A stretch of DNA of 34,219 nucleotides. Origin: Betaproteobacteria bacterium. Lineage in GTDB: Bacteria > Pseudomonadota > Gammaproteobacteria > Burkholderiales > SG8-39. The notes beneath the pieces are model-generated. The model was not told the origin of the DNA and made no database searches. It saw only the letters and a list, made by a program, of their open reading frames with translations. The stretch lies in assembly GCA_005881595.1 (NCBI GenBank), contig VBBY01000030.1, positions 1 through 34,219 on the forward strand. The letters run 5' to 3'. Made by a program: the position numbers and the translations under genes. This document shows, in pieces, positions 4,537 to 15,953 of the stretch. How positions within the stretch are numbered: the first letter of the stretch is position 1; every line of letters starts with the position of its first letter.

Positions 4537-5274
4537 TTGCTAAAAGTAGAACAACTCACAAAAAGCTTCGGCGGCTTCACCGCGGTCAGCAACGTCTCAT
4601 TCGAGGTCGCCGAGGGCGAGATCCTCGGCCTGATCGGCCCCAACGGCTCGGGCAAGAGCACCGTGTTCAATCTCATCGCCGGCGCGCTCAAGCCGAGCGC
4701 CGGCTCGGTGCGCTTTCGCGGCGCCGAGATCGGCTCGCATCCGGCCTATCGCGTCGCGCACGCCGGCATCGCGCGCACCTACCAGATCCCGCGCCCGTTC
4801 AGGAAGCTGAGCCTCCTTGAGAACGTTGCCCTGGCCGCATTCTATGGAGCGAATGAAAGGATCAATCGGCAAAAGGCGTTTTCTCTCGCAAGCGAGTCGC
4901 TGCAACTCGTGAACCTGCCCACTGAAGAAAGCGCGCGCGTGGAAGGGCTGGGGGCGGCGGGATTGAAAAAGCTGGAGCTTGCACGCGCGCTCGCCACGCA
5001 GCCGAAACTGCTGCTCGCCGACGAATCGCTCGGCGGGCTCGACCATTCCGAGATGGACTCGGCCGCCGACCTGCTCGCTTCGATCCGCGCGCGGCGCGGC
5101 ATCACCGTCGTCTGGGTCGAGCACATCATGGGCGTGCTGATGCGCGTGGTCGACCGCTGCATCGTCCTCGACCACGGCGAAGTCATCGCGCAGGGCAAGC
5201 CCGCCGCGGTGGCGCGCGATCCGAAGGTCATCGAGGTCTACCTGGGCACCGATGCAGATGCTTTCTCTTACTAA
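4537..5274 (+). CDS. livG: LivG-like ABC transporter ATPase
   Basis: A 245-residue nucleotide-binding subunit of the Liv-type importer. Walker A is GPNGSGKST (34-42), Walker B LLLADE (158-163, Glu163 catalytic), and the switch His lies in WVEHIMGV. The LivG-specific insert with GIARTYQIPRPF is present. The start is TTG at 4537, one base after the stop of the binding protein, with no visible Shine-Dalgarno, so translation probably depends on reinitiation. The ABC signature normally reading LSxGQ is LGAAG (138-142), and Ser replaces Pro after the Walker B Glu (DES rather than DEP). The gene is intact otherwise, so this looks like a subfamily trait. The last 23 nt overlap livF. Confidence 0.88.
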   Translation: MLKVEQLTKSFGGFTAVSNVSFEVAEGEILGLIGPNGSGKSTVFNLIAGALKPSAGSVRFRGAEIGSHPAYRVAHAGIARTYQIPRPFRKLSLLENVALAAFYGANERINRQKAFSLASESLQLVNLPTEESARVEGLGAAGLKKLELARALATQPKLLLADESLGGLDHSEMDSAADLLASIRARRGITVVWVEHIMGVLMRVVDRCIVLDHGEVIAQGKPAAVARDPKVIEVYLGTDADAFSY

Positions 5275-5962
5275 GGTCTGCGCGGGCTACAGCGGCTTCC
5301 AGGCGCTGTTCGAGGTCAGCGTGGAAGTCGAGGCGGGCGAGGCGGTCGCGGTGATCGGCCCGAACGGCGCCGGCAAGACCACGCTGCTGCGGGTCATCTC
5401 CAAGCTGATCGGGGCGACGAGCGGCGAGATCCGCATGGAAGGCGCGTCGCTCGCGCGCGTGCCGGCGCACGAGGTGGTCTCGCGCGGCATCGCGCACGTG
5501 CCGGAGAACCGGCGCCTGTTCCCGCGGCTCACGGTCGAAGAGAACCTGCGCATGGGCGCGTTTCCGCGCGCGGCGAGAAAACGCTACGGGGAAAGGCTGG
5601 AATTCGTCTACGGCCTGTTTCCGCGCCTCGAGGAGCGCCGCGGCCAGCCCGCGGGCACGCTCTCGGGCGGCGAGCAGCAGATGTGCGCCATCGGCCGCGC
5701 GCTGATGTCGGGGCCGAAGCTGCTGCTGCTCGACGAGCCCTCCGCCGGCCTCGCCCCGGTGGTGGTGCAGGCGATCTTCGACCTGGTGCGGCGCATCTGC
5801 GCGCAGGGCTACACCGTGCTGATCGTCGAGCAGAACATCCGCCAGGTGCTGAAGGTGGTCGGCCGCGCCTATCTGCTGGAGGCGGGCCGCATCAGGCTCG
5901 CGGGAAATTCAAGGGAATTCCTCGATTCGCAAGAGATCCGCAAAACCTACCTGGGCCTCTGA
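5252..5962 (+). CDS. livF: LivF-like ABC transporter ATPase
   Basis: A 236-residue second ATPase of the importer. Walker A GPNGAGKTT (36-44), canonical signature LSGGEQ (137-142), Walker B LLLLDEPSAGLAP and the His-equivalent loop region VEQNIRQ (Gln where LivG has His, normal for LivF) are all present, as is the LivF hallmark HVPENRRLFPRLTVEENL. ATG 5252 lies inside the end of livG (23-nt overlap); a second ATG two codons later is also possible. It should pair with LivG to form the two nucleotide sites energising transport. All motifs are intact, in contrast to the degenerate signature of its partner. Confidence 0.9.
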   Translation: MQMLSLTKVCAGYSGFQALFEVSVEVEAGEAVAVIGPNGAGKTTLLRVISKLIGATSGEIRMEGASLARVPAHEVVSRGIAHVPENRRLFPRLTVEENLRMGAFPRAARKRYGERLEFVYGLFPRLEERRGQPAGTLSGGEQQMCAIGRALMSGPKLLLLDEPSAGLAPVVVQAIFDLVRRICAQGYTVLIVEQNIRQVLKVVGRAYLLEAGRIRLAGNSREFLDSQEIRKTYLGL

Positions 5963-6829
5963 GTGGAAGTCTTCGACATCTTCCTCCTCGAGGCGATCCT
6001 GAACGGCCTGCTGCTCGGCGGGCTGCTCGCGCTGCTCTCGCTCGGCCTCAACCTGATCTTCGGCGTGATCGACGTGGTGTGGATCTGCTACGCCGAGCTG
6101 ATCATGTGCGGCATGTACGCGGTGTATTACCTGCACGTGCAATACCACTGGCCGCTGCTTGCCGCGATGGCGGCGGCGGTCGTGATCGTCGCAGTGCTGG
6201 GCGTGATCCTGCACCAGTTCGTGATCCGGCCGGTGCTCGGCGCCGAGCCGATCAACCAGCTGCTGGTGACCGGAGGCGTGCTGTTTTTCCTGCAGGCGGC
6301 GGCGACGCTCGCCTTCGGCATCGAGTTCAGGAACCTGGGAGTCACGCTGCCCTCGATCCGGCTGGGCGAGATGTCGTTCTCCGCGGCGCGGCTGGTCGCG
6401 TTCTGCGTCGCGCTCGCCGGGATGCTCGGCATGTACCTGTTCCTCAGCCGCAGCTACCTCGGCACGGCGATCCGCGCCATCAGCCAGGACCGCGCCATCA
6501 TGCCGCTGATGGGCGTGAGCCCGGCGCGCATCTTCGTGCTCGCCTCTGCGCTCGGCGGCGCGCTCGCCGGCCTCGGCGCCTGCCTGCTGGTGCTGCAGTA
6601 CGATGTCCATCCGGCGATCGGCCTGTCCTTCGGGCCGATCACCTTTCTCATCTGCGTGATGGGCGGCCTGGGCAGCATGGCGGGCGGCTTCATCGCGGCT
6701 TTCGTCTTCGCGCAGTTCATCTCGGTGGGCGGGTTCTTGTTCCACCTCGAGTGGGGCTATGTGCTTGCGTTCGCGTTCTTCATCGCGATGATGTTCTGGC
6801 GGCCGCAGGGAATTCTCGGTCGCAGGTGA
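5963..6829 (+). CDS. livH: LivH-like ABC transporter permease
   Basis: A 288-residue hydrophobic inner-membrane permease with about eight predicted membrane segments, beginning with ILNGLLLGGLLALLSLGLNLIFGV, the standard LivH N-terminus (the family usually reads A-L-G-L-x-L-I-F-G-V). The central SRSYLGTAIRAISQDRAIMPLMG matches the cytoplasmic coupling loop that docks on the ATPases, and FLICVMGGLGSMAGGF matches the conserved C-terminal segment. The start is GTG 5963, directly abutting the livF stop with no gap, which points to translational coupling. Length is typical for the family. Confidence 0.88.
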   Translation: MEVFDIFLLEAILNGLLLGGLLALLSLGLNLIFGVIDVVWICYAELIMCGMYAVYYLHVQYHWPLLAAMAAAVVIVAVLGVILHQFVIRPVLGAEPINQLLVTGGVLFFLQAAATLAFGIEFRNLGVTLPSIRLGEMSFSAARLVAFCVALAGMLGMYLFLSRSYLGTAIRAISQDRAIMPLMGVSPARIFVLASALGGALAGLGACLLVLQYDVHPAIGLSFGPITFLICVMGGLGSMAGGFIAAFVFAQFISVGGFLFHLEWGYVLAFAFFIAMMFWRPQGILGRR

Positions 6830-6832
6830 AAG

Positions 6833-7786
6833 ATGATCGGTAATTACCCCCTGCACCTGATGATCCTGGTCCTGCTCTGGGGCTACATCTACACCAGCTG
6901 GTCGCTGATGGGGCGCCTGGGCCTGGTGAGCTTCGGCCACGGCGCCTTCATGGGGATCGGCGCGTACACCGTGGTGATGCTGTGGAACCATTTCGGCTGG
7001 TCGCCCTGGGCCGGCGCGCTTGCCGCCCTGGCCTTCGCGGCGGCGGTCGCGATTCTGATCGGCTATCCGTGCTTCCGCTTCAGGATCGTCGGCCACTACT
7101 TCGCGCTCGTCACGCTCGCGCTGTCCGAGGTGGCGCGCCTGGTGATCGTCGCGCTGCGCGACCAGACCGGCGGCTCGCTCGGCGCCACGCCCAACTCCGC
7201 CCTGCACGGCGGGGCGACCGCGGCGCCCGGCGCGCTGCAGTTCTCGGACAAGCAGGTGTGGTTCTGGATCGTGCTCGCGTTCTGGCTGGCGGGACTCTGG
7301 GTGTGGCGCGCCGTCGACCGCAGCATGGCGCGGCTCGCGCTGCAGGCGATCAGCGAGGAAGAGGAGGCAGCCGCCTCGATCGGCATCCACGTCGCGCGCG
7401 CCAAGCTGCGCATCACCCTCATCTCGGCGCTGATGACCTGCGCGGGCGGCGTGCTCTACGCTCAGTACCAGCTCTACGTCAATCCCGACACGGTGTCGGG
7501 GATCGGCATCAGCCTGCAGATGGTGTTCGGGGCGATCGCCGGCGGCATGTTCGTGATGCTCGGGCCGACGGTCGGCGCGGCGTTCACGCTGCTGCTCGCC
7601 GAAGGGCTGCGCCTCGCCTTCGGCAACCGCTACCCGGCGCTCGACAGCACGCTCTACGGCGCGATGCTGGTGCTGTTCATCATCTACATGCCGAAGGGCA
7701 TCCTAGGCGCCGCGCTCGAGGCCTTGCGCGCGAGGACGGCGAGGCCGATAGCGCCCAGGAAGAGCAGCGGCATGCCCAGCGCGTAG
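6833..7786 (+). CDS. livM: LivM-like ABC transporter permease
   Basis: A 317-residue second permease of the importer. GRLGLVSFGHGAFMGIGAY near the N-terminus is the LivM family signature, and SIGIHVARAKLRI is the coupling-loop region. The last membrane segment ends YMPKGILGAALE, the usual LivM end, followed by about 20 extra residues. It follows livH after 3 nt. Its final 103 nt lie antisense to the end of the ABC-3 permease gene read from the other strand. With the three upstream genes and the binding protein it makes a complete Liv-type importer. Confidence 0.88.
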   Translation: MIGNYPLHLMILVLLWGYIYTSWSLMGRLGLVSFGHGAFMGIGAYTVVMLWNHFGWSPWAGALAALAFAAAVAILIGYPCFRFRIVGHYFALVTLALSEVARLVIVALRDQTGGSLGATPNSALHGGATAAPGALQFSDKQVWFWIVLAFWLAGLWVWRAVDRSMARLALQAISEEEEAAASIGIHVARAKLRITLISALMTCAGGVLYAQYQLYVNPDTVSGIGISLQMVFGAIAGGMFVMLGPTVGAAFTLLLAEGLRLAFGNRYPALDSTLYGAMLVLFIIYMPKGILGAALEALRARTARPIAPRKSSGMPSA

Positions 7787-12560: not shown

Positions 12561-12652
12561 CGAGCTACAAGGGATGTTGAACATTGGGGTTTCTCCGGAA
12601 TAAACTTCTGCGGCGCCGCGTTAGCTCAGCGGTCCTAGAAAAGGAGACCACC
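12561..12652 (+). promoter_or_regulatory. Candidate promoter region upstream of DUF5666-like/IorAB genes
   Basis: This 92-bp gap contains GGAATAAA at 12597-12604 followed about 16 bp later by CGTTAG (12619-12624), a layout reminiscent of promoters read by ECF sigma factors rather than the housekeeping one. The ribosome-binding site AAGGAGA (12640-12646) lies 6 nt before ATG 12653. The palindrome GCGGCGCCGC (12610-12619) falls inside the would-be spacer. Assigned by pattern only. Confidence 0.25.
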
Positions 12653-13258
12653 ATGATCCGTACCCTCGCCGCAGTCCTGCTCGCAGCCTTCTCAGCCGCC
12701 GCCTTCGCCCAGGCGCCGGCCAGCCCGCCGGTGAGAATCCGCGGCACGGTCCAGTCGCTCGACGGCCAGATCCTGACCGTGAAGGCCCGCAACGGCGAGA
12801 CCATGAAAGTGAAGCTCGCCGACAACTTCGTGGTGATGGGAATCACGAAGGCGGGCGTCGACGACATCGCCAGCGGCAAGTTCATCGGCACCACGACCGT
12901 GGGCCAGCGCGGAGGCTCGCTGGTCGCCGAGGAAGTCCACATCTTTCCCGAGAACATGCGCGGCACCGGGGAAGGGCACTACGACTGGGATCTCAGGCCC
13001 GACAGCAAGATGACCAACGCGAACGTCGCCAACGTCGTCAAGATGGCGAACGACCGCGTGATGAGCGTGAAGTACAAGGGCGGCGAGAAGCAGATCCTGG
13101 TGACGCCGAAGACCGCGGTGGTGTCCTACACGCCCTCGAGCCGCAGCGAGCTCAAGCCCGGCGCGCCGGTCTTCGTCAACGCGCAGCGCCAGCCCGACGG
13201 CACGCTCGCCGCGCCGCGCGTCAACGTCGGGCTGCACGGCCAGGTGCCGCCGATGTAG
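12653..13258 (+). CDS. Secreted DUF5666-like protein
   Basis: A 201-residue protein with a signal peptide (residues 1-20, ending AAFAQ) and no membrane segments. The repeated small beta units, [19 protein letters not shown] and later [14 protein letters not shown] with [12 protein letters not shown], resemble the OB-like folds grouped as DUF5666. Start ATG 12653 directly follows AAGGAGA and starts the signal peptide; an upstream in-frame ATG at 12584 is rejected. The gene stands 29 bp before the 2Fe-2S subunit on the same strand, so a periplasmic link to the molybdenum hydroxylase is plausible, but no activity is known for this fold. Confidence 0.65.
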
Positions 13259-13745: not shown

Positions 13746-15953
13746 ATGACGACACGGCGCGAGTTCATGGTCGGCGTCTCCGGCCTTACCTTCGGCATCC
13801 TCCTCGAAGGTTGTGCAGCAACCCCTGAAGCGCGTGAGCGCAGCGGGGCATCGCTCGCCCAGACCCCGGCGGGCGGCGCAAGAGCCGTCAATGCCTGGGC
13901 AAGCCTCTCCCCCGACGGCACGATCTGGATCGTCAACCCGGCGGTGGAGATGGGCCAGGGCTCGCAGACCGCGATTCCGCTCATCATCGCCGAGGAGATG
14001 GACGCCGACTGGTCGCGCGTGGTGATCGTCCCGGCGGCGCCGGACGACAAGGTCTACGGCAACCCGGGCTTCCGCGGCCTGATGTACACCGCTGGCTCGG
14101 CCACCGTGACCGGCTACTGGGATGTCGCGCGCACTTTCGGCGCCCAGGTGCGGCGCGTGATGATGGAGAACGCCGCGCGCCTCTGGAACGTGCCGCTCGC
14201 GGAGCTCTCCACCGAGCCGAGCACGGTCGTGCACGCGAAATCCGGCCGCAGGCTCGGCTACGGCGAGATCGCCGCGGTCGCGCAGCTGCCCGCGGTGGCC
14301 CCGGCGATCAAGCCCGAAGAGCTGAAACAGCCCGGGCAATACCGCCTGATCGGCAAGGACGTGATGCGCGTCGAGCTACCCAGCAAGGTGGACGGTCGCG
14401 CGCAGTACAGCATCGACGTGCAGCTCCCCGGCATGCTCTATGGCGCGGTGCTGCGCGGACCGGTCGAGGGATCAGCGCCGCTCGCGATCGACGATTCGCG
14501 CTCGCGTGCGATTCCCGGCGTGGTCTCCATCGTGCGCATGCCCTTCGGCGTCGGCGTGATCGCCGAGACGCCGTGGGCCGCGTTCGGCGCGAAGGACGCG
14601 CTCGGGGTGACCTGGGACCGGCGCGCGCGCGCGTTCGGTCACGACAGCGCCCGCGCCCCCGCGCTCTACTCGGCGGCGGCGCGCGACCTGACCCGCCCCG
14701 GCAAGCCCTGGGACAGCGCCGGCGATGCCCCCGCAGCGATGCAGAAGGCGGCGAAGACCTACGAGAGCGAGTACATCTGCGACTACACCTATCACGCGCA
14801 GATGGAGCCGCTCAACTCGGTGGCCTCGGTTTCGGCCGCCGGCGATGCCTGCGAGATCTGGTGCGGCACGCAATCGCAGACCATGGCGGTGGCCGCGGTG
14901 GCGAAAGCGCTCGGCATCGCGCCCGAGAAAGTGAAGCTCAACCTGATGCTGCTCGGCGGGGGCTTCGGCCGGCGCGGGCACCGCGACGAGGAGTTCGTCG
15001 TCGATTCCGTGCTGCTCTCGAAGGAAGTGAAGCGCCCCGTGAAAGTGCTGTGGACGCGCGAGGACGACGTGAAGAACGGCCGCTTCCGCCCGCTCTCGGT
15101 GCATTACCTGCGCGCCGGGCTGGATGGCGCCGGGCGCATCGTAGCGTGGCAGCACCGCGTCGCCTGCGACGAGATCACCGCGTTCCAGGACCCGGTGCGC
15201 TACAAGGGCGGCGGCGAGCGCGACTTCCTGGCGATGGCCGGATCGGAGCTGCGCACCTACGACATCCCGAACCGGCTCTCGGAGCAGCTTCCCCAGCAGA
15301 CCGGGATCCGCACCTCGTCGCTGCGCGGCATCGGCTTCGGGCCGAACAAGTTCGCGACCGAGGCCTTCCTCGACGAGATCGCGGTGAGGCACGGCCTCGA
15401 TCGCGTGGACCTCAGGCTGCAGCTTCTGAAGGACACGCCGCGCGGCCAGGCGGTGGTGCGCGAGGTGGTGGCGATGTCCGAGTACCGACGCGCGCGGCCG
15501 GGCCGCGGCCTGGGCTTCTCCTTCATCGACTACTCGGGGACGATGCTGGCCGCGGTGGCGGAAGCCTCGGTGGACAGAAAGAGCGGCAAGATCACCGTGC
15601 ATGACTTCTGGCTCGCGCTCGATCCCGGCATCGCGGTGCAGCCGGACAACGTCCTCGCGCAGACCGAGAGCTCGATCATCTACGGCCTGGGCCTGAGCCT
15701 CACCGAGCGCATCAGCTTCAAGGACGGCGCGGTGCAGGAGCGCAACCTCCGCGACTACGGCGTGCCGCGCCTCGAGGACATCCCGGAGCTGCACCTGAAG
15801 CTGCTGTCGACGCCGAACCGGCCGACCGGCGCGGGGCAGATGGCGACGCCGATCGTGGCACCGGTGATTGCGAGCGCGGTTTACGCGGCGAGCGGGGCGC
15901 GCGTGCGGCACACGCCCTTCCTGCCGGAGCGCGTGCTGACGGCCCTCGGTTGA
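13746..15953 (+). CDS. Molybdopterin-binding large subunit, IorB-like
   Basis: A 735-residue subunit of the xanthine dehydrogenase superfamily, IorB type. The N-terminus carries a Tat motif (Arg4-Arg5, RREFMVG) and then LLEGC (Cys23), so it may be a Tat-exported lipoprotein. WIVNPAVEMGQGSQTAI opens the first molybdopterin domain, LGGGFGRR (403-410) binds the cofactor, and RTSSLRGIGFGPNKFATEAF is the conserved Arg-containing active-site segment. In the C-terminal motif that normally reads GxGE, with Glu as catalytic base, this protein has TGAGQ, Gln698 (codon CAG, 15837-15839). The partner 2Fe-2S subunit lies just upstream. Substrate unknown: N-heterocycles or aldehydes are typical. No XdhC-type maturation gene is in view. 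Confidence 0.9.
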   Translation: MTTRREFMVGVSGLTFGILLEGCAATPEARERSGASLAQTPAGGARAVNAWASLSPDGTIWIVNPAVEMGQGSQTAIPLIIAEEMDADWSRVVIVPAAPDDKVYGNPGFRGLMYTAGSATVTGYWDVARTFGAQVRRVMMENAARLWNVPLAELSTEPSTVVHAKSGRRLGYGEIAAVAQLPAVAPAIKPEELKQPGQYRLIGKDVMRVELPSKVDGRAQYSIDVQLPGMLYGAVLRGPVEGSAPLAIDDSRSRAIPGVVSIVRMPFGVGVIAETPWAAFGAKDALGVTWDRRARAFGHDSARAPALYSAAARDLTRPGKPWDSAGDAPAAMQKAAKTYESEYICDYTYHAQMEPLNSVASVSAAGDACEIWCGTQSQTMAVAAVAKALGIAPEKVKLNLMLLGGGFGRRGHRDEEFVVDSVLLSKEVKRPVKVLWTREDDVKNGRFRPLSVHYLRAGLDGAGRIVAWQHRVACDEITAFQDPVRYKGGGERDFLAMAGSELRTYDIPNRLSEQLPQQTGIRTSSLRGIGFGPNKFATEAFLDEIAVRHGLDRVDLRLQLLKDTPRGQAVVREVVAMSEYRRARPGRGLGFSFIDYSGTMLAAVAEASVDRKSGKITVHDFWLALDPGIAVQPDNVLAQTESSIIYGLGLSLTERISFKDGAVQERNLRDYGVPRLEDIPELHLKLLSTPNRPTGAGQMATPIVAPVIASAVYAASGARVRHTPFLPERVLTALG

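Follow-up and report, generated by a model that had tools for sequence, protein, structure and literature searches.

Does a molybdenum hydroxylase need the glutamate that, throughout its superfamily, is regarded as the indispensable general base? This question is raised by a gene pair in the window, as we call the whole 34,219-nucleotide stretch analysed here (contig VBBY01000030.1, from a betaproteobacterial assembly), whose large subunit (P0001) has Gln at the corresponding position. The first-pass annotation of this DNA had offered two readings of that residue, a subfamily trait with changed chemistry or an inactivated enzyme.

The gene pair and its catalytic position

The two genes (Table 1) are separated by two bases, with the [2Fe-2S] gene first. 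All eight cluster cysteines of the small subunit are present (C39, C44, C47, C59, C97, C100, C132 and C134), and P0001, the AF2 model of which has a mean pLDDT of 91.5, matches the Pfam domains MoCoBD_1 and MoCoBD_2 (PF02738 and PF20256) above cut-off. The segment with the GQG loop is N-terminal, ahead of MoCoBD_1, in the same segment order as in 8gy3_C, an IorB-like layout; residues 52-121 and 325-565 of P0001 align with residues 464-534 and 163-397 of 1rm6_A, respectively. P0001 carries a twin-arginine motif (RREFM) at its N-terminus, and a Pfam scan of neighbouring genes found no FAD domain. The pair shares MoCoBD domains, fold and a two-cluster [2Fe-2S] subunit with the xanthine oxidase family, but P0001 lacks the catalytic Glu of the C-terminal GxGE motif; it is therefore placed in this family by descent and fold only, which makes it less safe to assume that it performs the family's usual chemistry.

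Table 1. Features of the gene pair, in positions of the window
Feature	Position	Strand	Evidence
[2Fe-2S] small subunit, 151 aa	13288..13743	+	Pfam Fer2_2 and Fer2
Mo (molybdopterin) large subunit P0001, 735 aa, Gln-type (Q1)	13746..15953	+	ORF, translation, Pfam, PDB 8gy3_C match
GQG cofactor loop, residues 70-72, kept	13953..13961	+	
GGGFGRR cofactor loop, residues 404-410, kept	14955..14975	+	
Residues 411-413 (G-H-R), just past the FG loop	14976..14984	+	
Codon GAC, Asp482, candidate substitute base (inferred)	15189..15191	+	
Codon CAG, Gln698, at the site of the family's catalytic Glu	15837..15839	+	Translation, alignments

The Gln698 codon lies in the reading frame opened by the ATG at 13746, and the surrounding residues read PNRPTGAGQMATPIVAP (residue 698 of 735). 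In phmmer alignments PTGAGQMATPIVAP of P0001 stands opposite PTGLGEPGVTVVAP of 8gy3_C, with Gln698 on its Glu, a match reproduced by a profile search, and Gln698 is likewise aligned to the Glu in GVGE of PaoC. The alignment to 8gy3_C together with the fold match places Gln698 on the catalytic Glu, as the first-pass annotation had claimed. A nearby Glu was considered as a stand-in and rejected, there being no Glu in residues 690-712 of P0001, and with this the alternative that another Glu occupies the catalytic position falls away.

Among 19 further matches read in the window's own genome, seven have Glu at the aligned position, two have it by eye (GMGE in L010, where the aligner was offset, and GAKE in L014, where the aligner gave a Q three residues on) and ten stop short. 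This genome (3.8 Mb) matches the large subunit at 24 places with E 1e-5 or better, some of them fragments of one gene, and represents a strong expansion of molybdenum hydroxylases.

Gln698 as a subfamily trait

Relatives were sought in 200 genomes of the order, 369 of the class and 98 of the family, and in the genome_contigs collection, from which the best 80 matches were used; loci with fewer than 600 aligned residues, exact duplicates and three near-duplicates were omitted before counting. In the 100-row family alignment, 41 rows have Gln, 56 have Glu and three (L064, L071 and L127) stop before the motif. The share of Gln among the rows reaching this column (41/97) is no natural frequency, since the genome_contigs scan was seeded with Gln-type sequences, and the main point of the survey is the sharp boundary between the two types rather than their proportion. 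All but two of the Gln rows (39/41), too many for a chance event, form one clade with the window's gene (SH-aLRT 99 in the 100-row tree, 100 in a second tree), hereafter Q1, in which all 39 rows reaching the motif carry GQM and identity to P0001 is at least 54%. The relatives just outside Q1 are mostly 42-47% identical and, L030 and L031 apart (see below), invariably have Glu, and the 50 nearest Glu-type relatives have Glu without exception (50/50). Among the matches listed, Q1 comes from beta- and alphaproteobacterial MAGs and from Bradyrhizobium erythrophlei GAS478. One further Q1-type gene (L069:5355-7511) lies in two frames in a single MAG, through assembly error or decay; its C-terminal piece also reads GQM and was excluded from the Gln counts.

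Both Gln codons are used at position 698 (33 CAG and 8 CAA in 41 rows), in proportion to all Gln codons (975 and 222), and NG86 dN/dS values of 0.057-0.204 over 12 pairs, with 0.13-0.19 in the three comparisons made within the group closest to the window's gene, indicate purifying selection. The Fe-S subunit is found directly upstream in all 34 Q1 loci having at least 898 bp of upstream sequence; where less is available (five loci) it is partial in three cases and absent in two. The GQG, GGGFG and HAxMEP loops are intact in Q1, and a pattern search found the twin-arginine motif in 38 of 39 rows, the exception (L073) being truncated by a contig end; judging by this motif, the Q1 large subunit is probably exported by the Tat system.

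The first of the two readings offered earlier, that of a subfamily trait, is supported by the unbroken conservation of Gln among the close homologues, by purifying selection and by the use of two codons. As far as the compared sequences tell, the Gln replacement is a fixed, conserved property of the whole Q1 subfamily and no one-off mutation. The fragmented state of the window's assembly (257 contigs) could suggest a base-call error or a decayed gene in one MAG, an artefact to which we give practically no credence: the frame is open, dN/dS is low, and the same residue, encoded by either codon, recurs throughout the clade (39/39 rows) in independent assemblies.

Gene neighbourhoods and a second Gln-type subunit

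The two exceptions mentioned above, L030 and L031, belong to a separate clade, Q2, with the motif SG[AG]GQ[ILV]. A Q2-like subunit adjoins Q1 in seven of the 39 Q1 loci (L025, L054, L055, L057, L060, L061 and L062). Five of these seven loci include the end of the subunit that bears the motif; the motif is drifting in L060, where the aligner put G at the column and reading by eye gives RAAQIAGLPQAP, against GAGQIAGLPQAP in L062; the L060 copy probably keeps Gln, on this reading, and was counted as uncertain. Of 399 genomes of the order searched with a Q2 profile, 16 gave matches at E 1e-170 or better; 12 loci were read, and only those in G131, G718 and G175 were Q2 by score and reading, the others being Q1, Glu-type or incomplete.

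A single origin of Gln in Q1 and Q2 was considered and rejected, as Q1 (20 rows, support 100) and Q2 (7 rows, support 100) are separated by Glu types in the tree, which thus requires two changes, and as an AU test rejected the constraint forcing them into one clade (p 0.024, a moderate support only, since the group was defined after the tree had been seen). It therefore seems from the tree that the Gln of Q2 is probably of independent origin, and two independent swaps in enzymes sharing an operon favour selection rather than decay.

Other positions also set Q2 apart: the otherwise invariant Arg527 (P0001 numbering) is replaced by Asn in 7/7 rows and, within positions 409-412, the RR of the FG loop by AK or LK; position 412 is Glu in 7/7. 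Taken at face value, these residues make the Q2 active site seem more deeply reworked than that of Q1. Two tandem [2Fe-2S]/Mo pairs, both Gln-type, are followed by a propeller-like protein in L054 (6797-14665) and also in L055, L057, L060 and L062, with an ATP-grasp ligase further along in L054, L060 and L062.

The genes surrounding Q1 were taken from our own gene caller (based on GC by codon position), which missed some short or overlapping genes, including Fe-S genes, the latter being recovered through direct search. Of the 39 Q1 loci, 17 are followed by a co-directional ATP-grasp gene (D-Ala-D-Ala-ligase-like), compared with none of 56 Glu-type loci (14/29 against 0/27 where at least 2.5 kb of downstream sequence is available), a propeller-like protein (weak LVIVD/choice-of-anchor matches) occurs in 9/39 against 0/56, an M24 peptidase nearby in 6/39 against 0/56 and TctC receptors in 19/39 against 10/56, a contrast partly confounded by taxonomy because the Glu-type set is taxonomically broader. 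A cytochrome c was dropped as a distinguishing partner: a CxxCH protein is found in three of 39 Q1 loci and, within 3 kb, is equally rare in Gln-type loci (2/23, these being Q1 or Q2 with flanks of at least 1.4 kb) and Glu-type loci (2/30). No CxxCH protein adjoins the gene pair in the window.

The pair's neighbours in the window (an M20 deacylase and ExtJ/DUF5666-like, DsbA-like, ferritin-like and PagL proteins) give no clue to the substrate, and in the gene clusters none of them recurs at other loci of the Gln type. Close to the gene pair, the partners typical of other Q1 loci are missing from the window's own lineage. The ATP-grasp partner has no close copy in the window's genome (best match 26%), propeller homologues are present elsewhere in that genome but not near the gene pair, and no relatives were found in IMG/VR. 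Directly upstream of the Fe-S gene, 12584-13258 encodes a protein that weakly resembles, below the cut-off, both DUF5666 and ExtJ, a protein of selenite/tellurite reduction operons. Farther away lie genes for a branched-chain amino acid type ABC transporter (4537-7786; two ATPases and two permeases) and a tannase/feruloyl-esterase-like gene (355-1713), which possibly mark an aromatic-acid catabolic region.

A proposed replacement base, rival readings and known systems

The first-pass remark that the rest of the subunit looks intact holds for the cofactor loops, which are kept, but not for the subunit as a whole, in which the clade differs consistently at further positions (G411, R413, F417, D482, L526, M699 and A700). 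Defining as clade-specific those columns with one residue in at least 90% of the 41 Gln-clade rows and in at most 15% of the 50 Glu-type rows, we found all of these, the first three being past the FG loop, along with D475, T519 and T523. G411 and R413 hardly vary within the Gln clade but do so among Glu-type relatives, and the position of L526 is mostly Trp in the latter. Some of the Q1-specific positions adjoin the cofactor loop and what is presumed to be the pocket for the substrate.

Position 482 is acidic in 41/41 Gln-clade rows and in 2% of Glu-type rows. In bovine xanthine oxidase numbering we take the 475-485 stretch to precede the substrate-channel arginine and 411 to fall near Glu802, which would put Asp482 near the molybdenum. 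Asp482 cannot be a general answer for both Q1 and Q2, as the seven Q2 rows have no acid there (six R, one H). Asp475 was rejected as a substitute base: it is Asp in 40/41 Q1 and 7/7 Q2 rows but an acid in 76% of Glu-type rows, and so does not discriminate between the types.

With somewhat more confidence than doubt, we infer that the gene pair encodes a working, exported oxidoreductase of the Q1 subfamily in which the base is supplied by another group. It would be a two-subunit [2Fe-2S]/molybdopterin enzyme belonging, within the xanthine oxidase family, to the IorAB-like branch, with a predicted location in the periplasm. Gln698 would still hold the Mo-OH and the substrate through hydrogen bonds, while the Mo-OH proton could be taken by Asp482 (invariant, and only in Q1) or by a basic atom of the substrate; hydride would pass to the Mo sulfido group and electrons would leave via the two [2Fe-2S] clusters as usual. 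PMC8305194 describes the catalytic Glu as strictly conserved and KdhL E748A as inactive, and gives a computed mechanism for Kdh in which the Mo-OH proton goes first to substrate N1, so that substrate-assisted proton transfer is thinkable. As mouse AOX1 E1265Q is also inactive, aldehydes included (PMC2671166), either something presumably compensates for the natural Gln of Q1 or the enzyme works by another chemistry; changed chemistry in Q1 is plausible.

The behaviour of that AOX1 mutant could be read in favour of a pseudoenzyme that kept fold and cofactor but no longer hydroxylates, its role being that of a partner, sensor or electron-transfer subunit, and the Mo subunit adjoining Q1 in seven of 39 loci is what a non-catalytic partner might be expected to have beside it. 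That subunit, where readable, is however also Gln-type, and hence no active partner by the same rule, and the other 32 loci have no such neighbour within the sequence covered. Furthermore, a scaffold would be expected to lose its redox parts, contrary to the conserved cofactor loops and Fe-S subunit and the low dN/dS. The inactivated enzyme of the first-pass annotation is disfavoured on these grounds, together with the conservation of the Gln itself, and we regard a pseudoenzyme as rather unlikely. Less likely still is an ordinary hydroxylase in which Gln suffices, with no replacement base, for a highly activated substrate such as an aldehyde hydrate or a lactol. Relatives in this branch do oxidise aldehydes (8gy3) and sugars (deoxyribose, as deduced from mutant fitness in PMC6365646), but the AOX1 mutant failed on aldehydes too, and the clade-specific changes at several pocket-like positions point beyond mere tolerance of Gln.

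Going further than the working oxidoreductase that we prefer, one might suppose, much more tentatively, a molybdenum chemistry that dispenses with the catalytic Glu, lost twice in paralogues that stand side by side in one operon in several genomes, frequently accompanied by a propeller protein and an ATP-grasp ligase; the reaction would be an undescribed one, with another residue or the substrate as base. Q1 offers a natural test of the need for the base and would direct attention to substrates or a proton route not yet described, and caution is called for when automatic annotation labels its genes isoquinoline or xanthine oxidoreductases. In the mainly open-access literature searched on the residue, the family, the Gluconobacter enzyme and the neighbourhood, no naturally occurring subfamily of the Gln type was found described.

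The large-subunit layout of P0001 is that of IorAB, the isoquinoline 1-oxidoreductase of Pseudomonas diminuta, a two-subunit [2Fe-2S]/Mo hydroxylase that is expected to carry the catalytic Glu. The best solved relative is 8gy3_C, the large subunit of the membrane-bound aldehyde dehydrogenase of Gluconobacter oxydans, which resembles P0001 in its full-length architecture (Z 46.9, rmsd 2.2 A over 685 residues, 29-32% identity) and in its arginine-rich start, also aligned, but carries Glu, in PTGLGEPG, at the position of Gln698. By description, Q1 can also be likened to the iorAB-like Mo enzyme of Pseudomonas simiae, a deoxyribose dehydrogenase (its activity inferred from mutant fitness; PMC6365646) whose large subunit may bear a Tat signal and whose operon, unlike all but a few Q1 loci, includes a cytochrome c gene. 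Mouse AOX1 E1265Q has the same swap at the same catalytic position, made in the laboratory and inactive according to PMC2671166, whereas the Gln of Q1 is natural and conserved.
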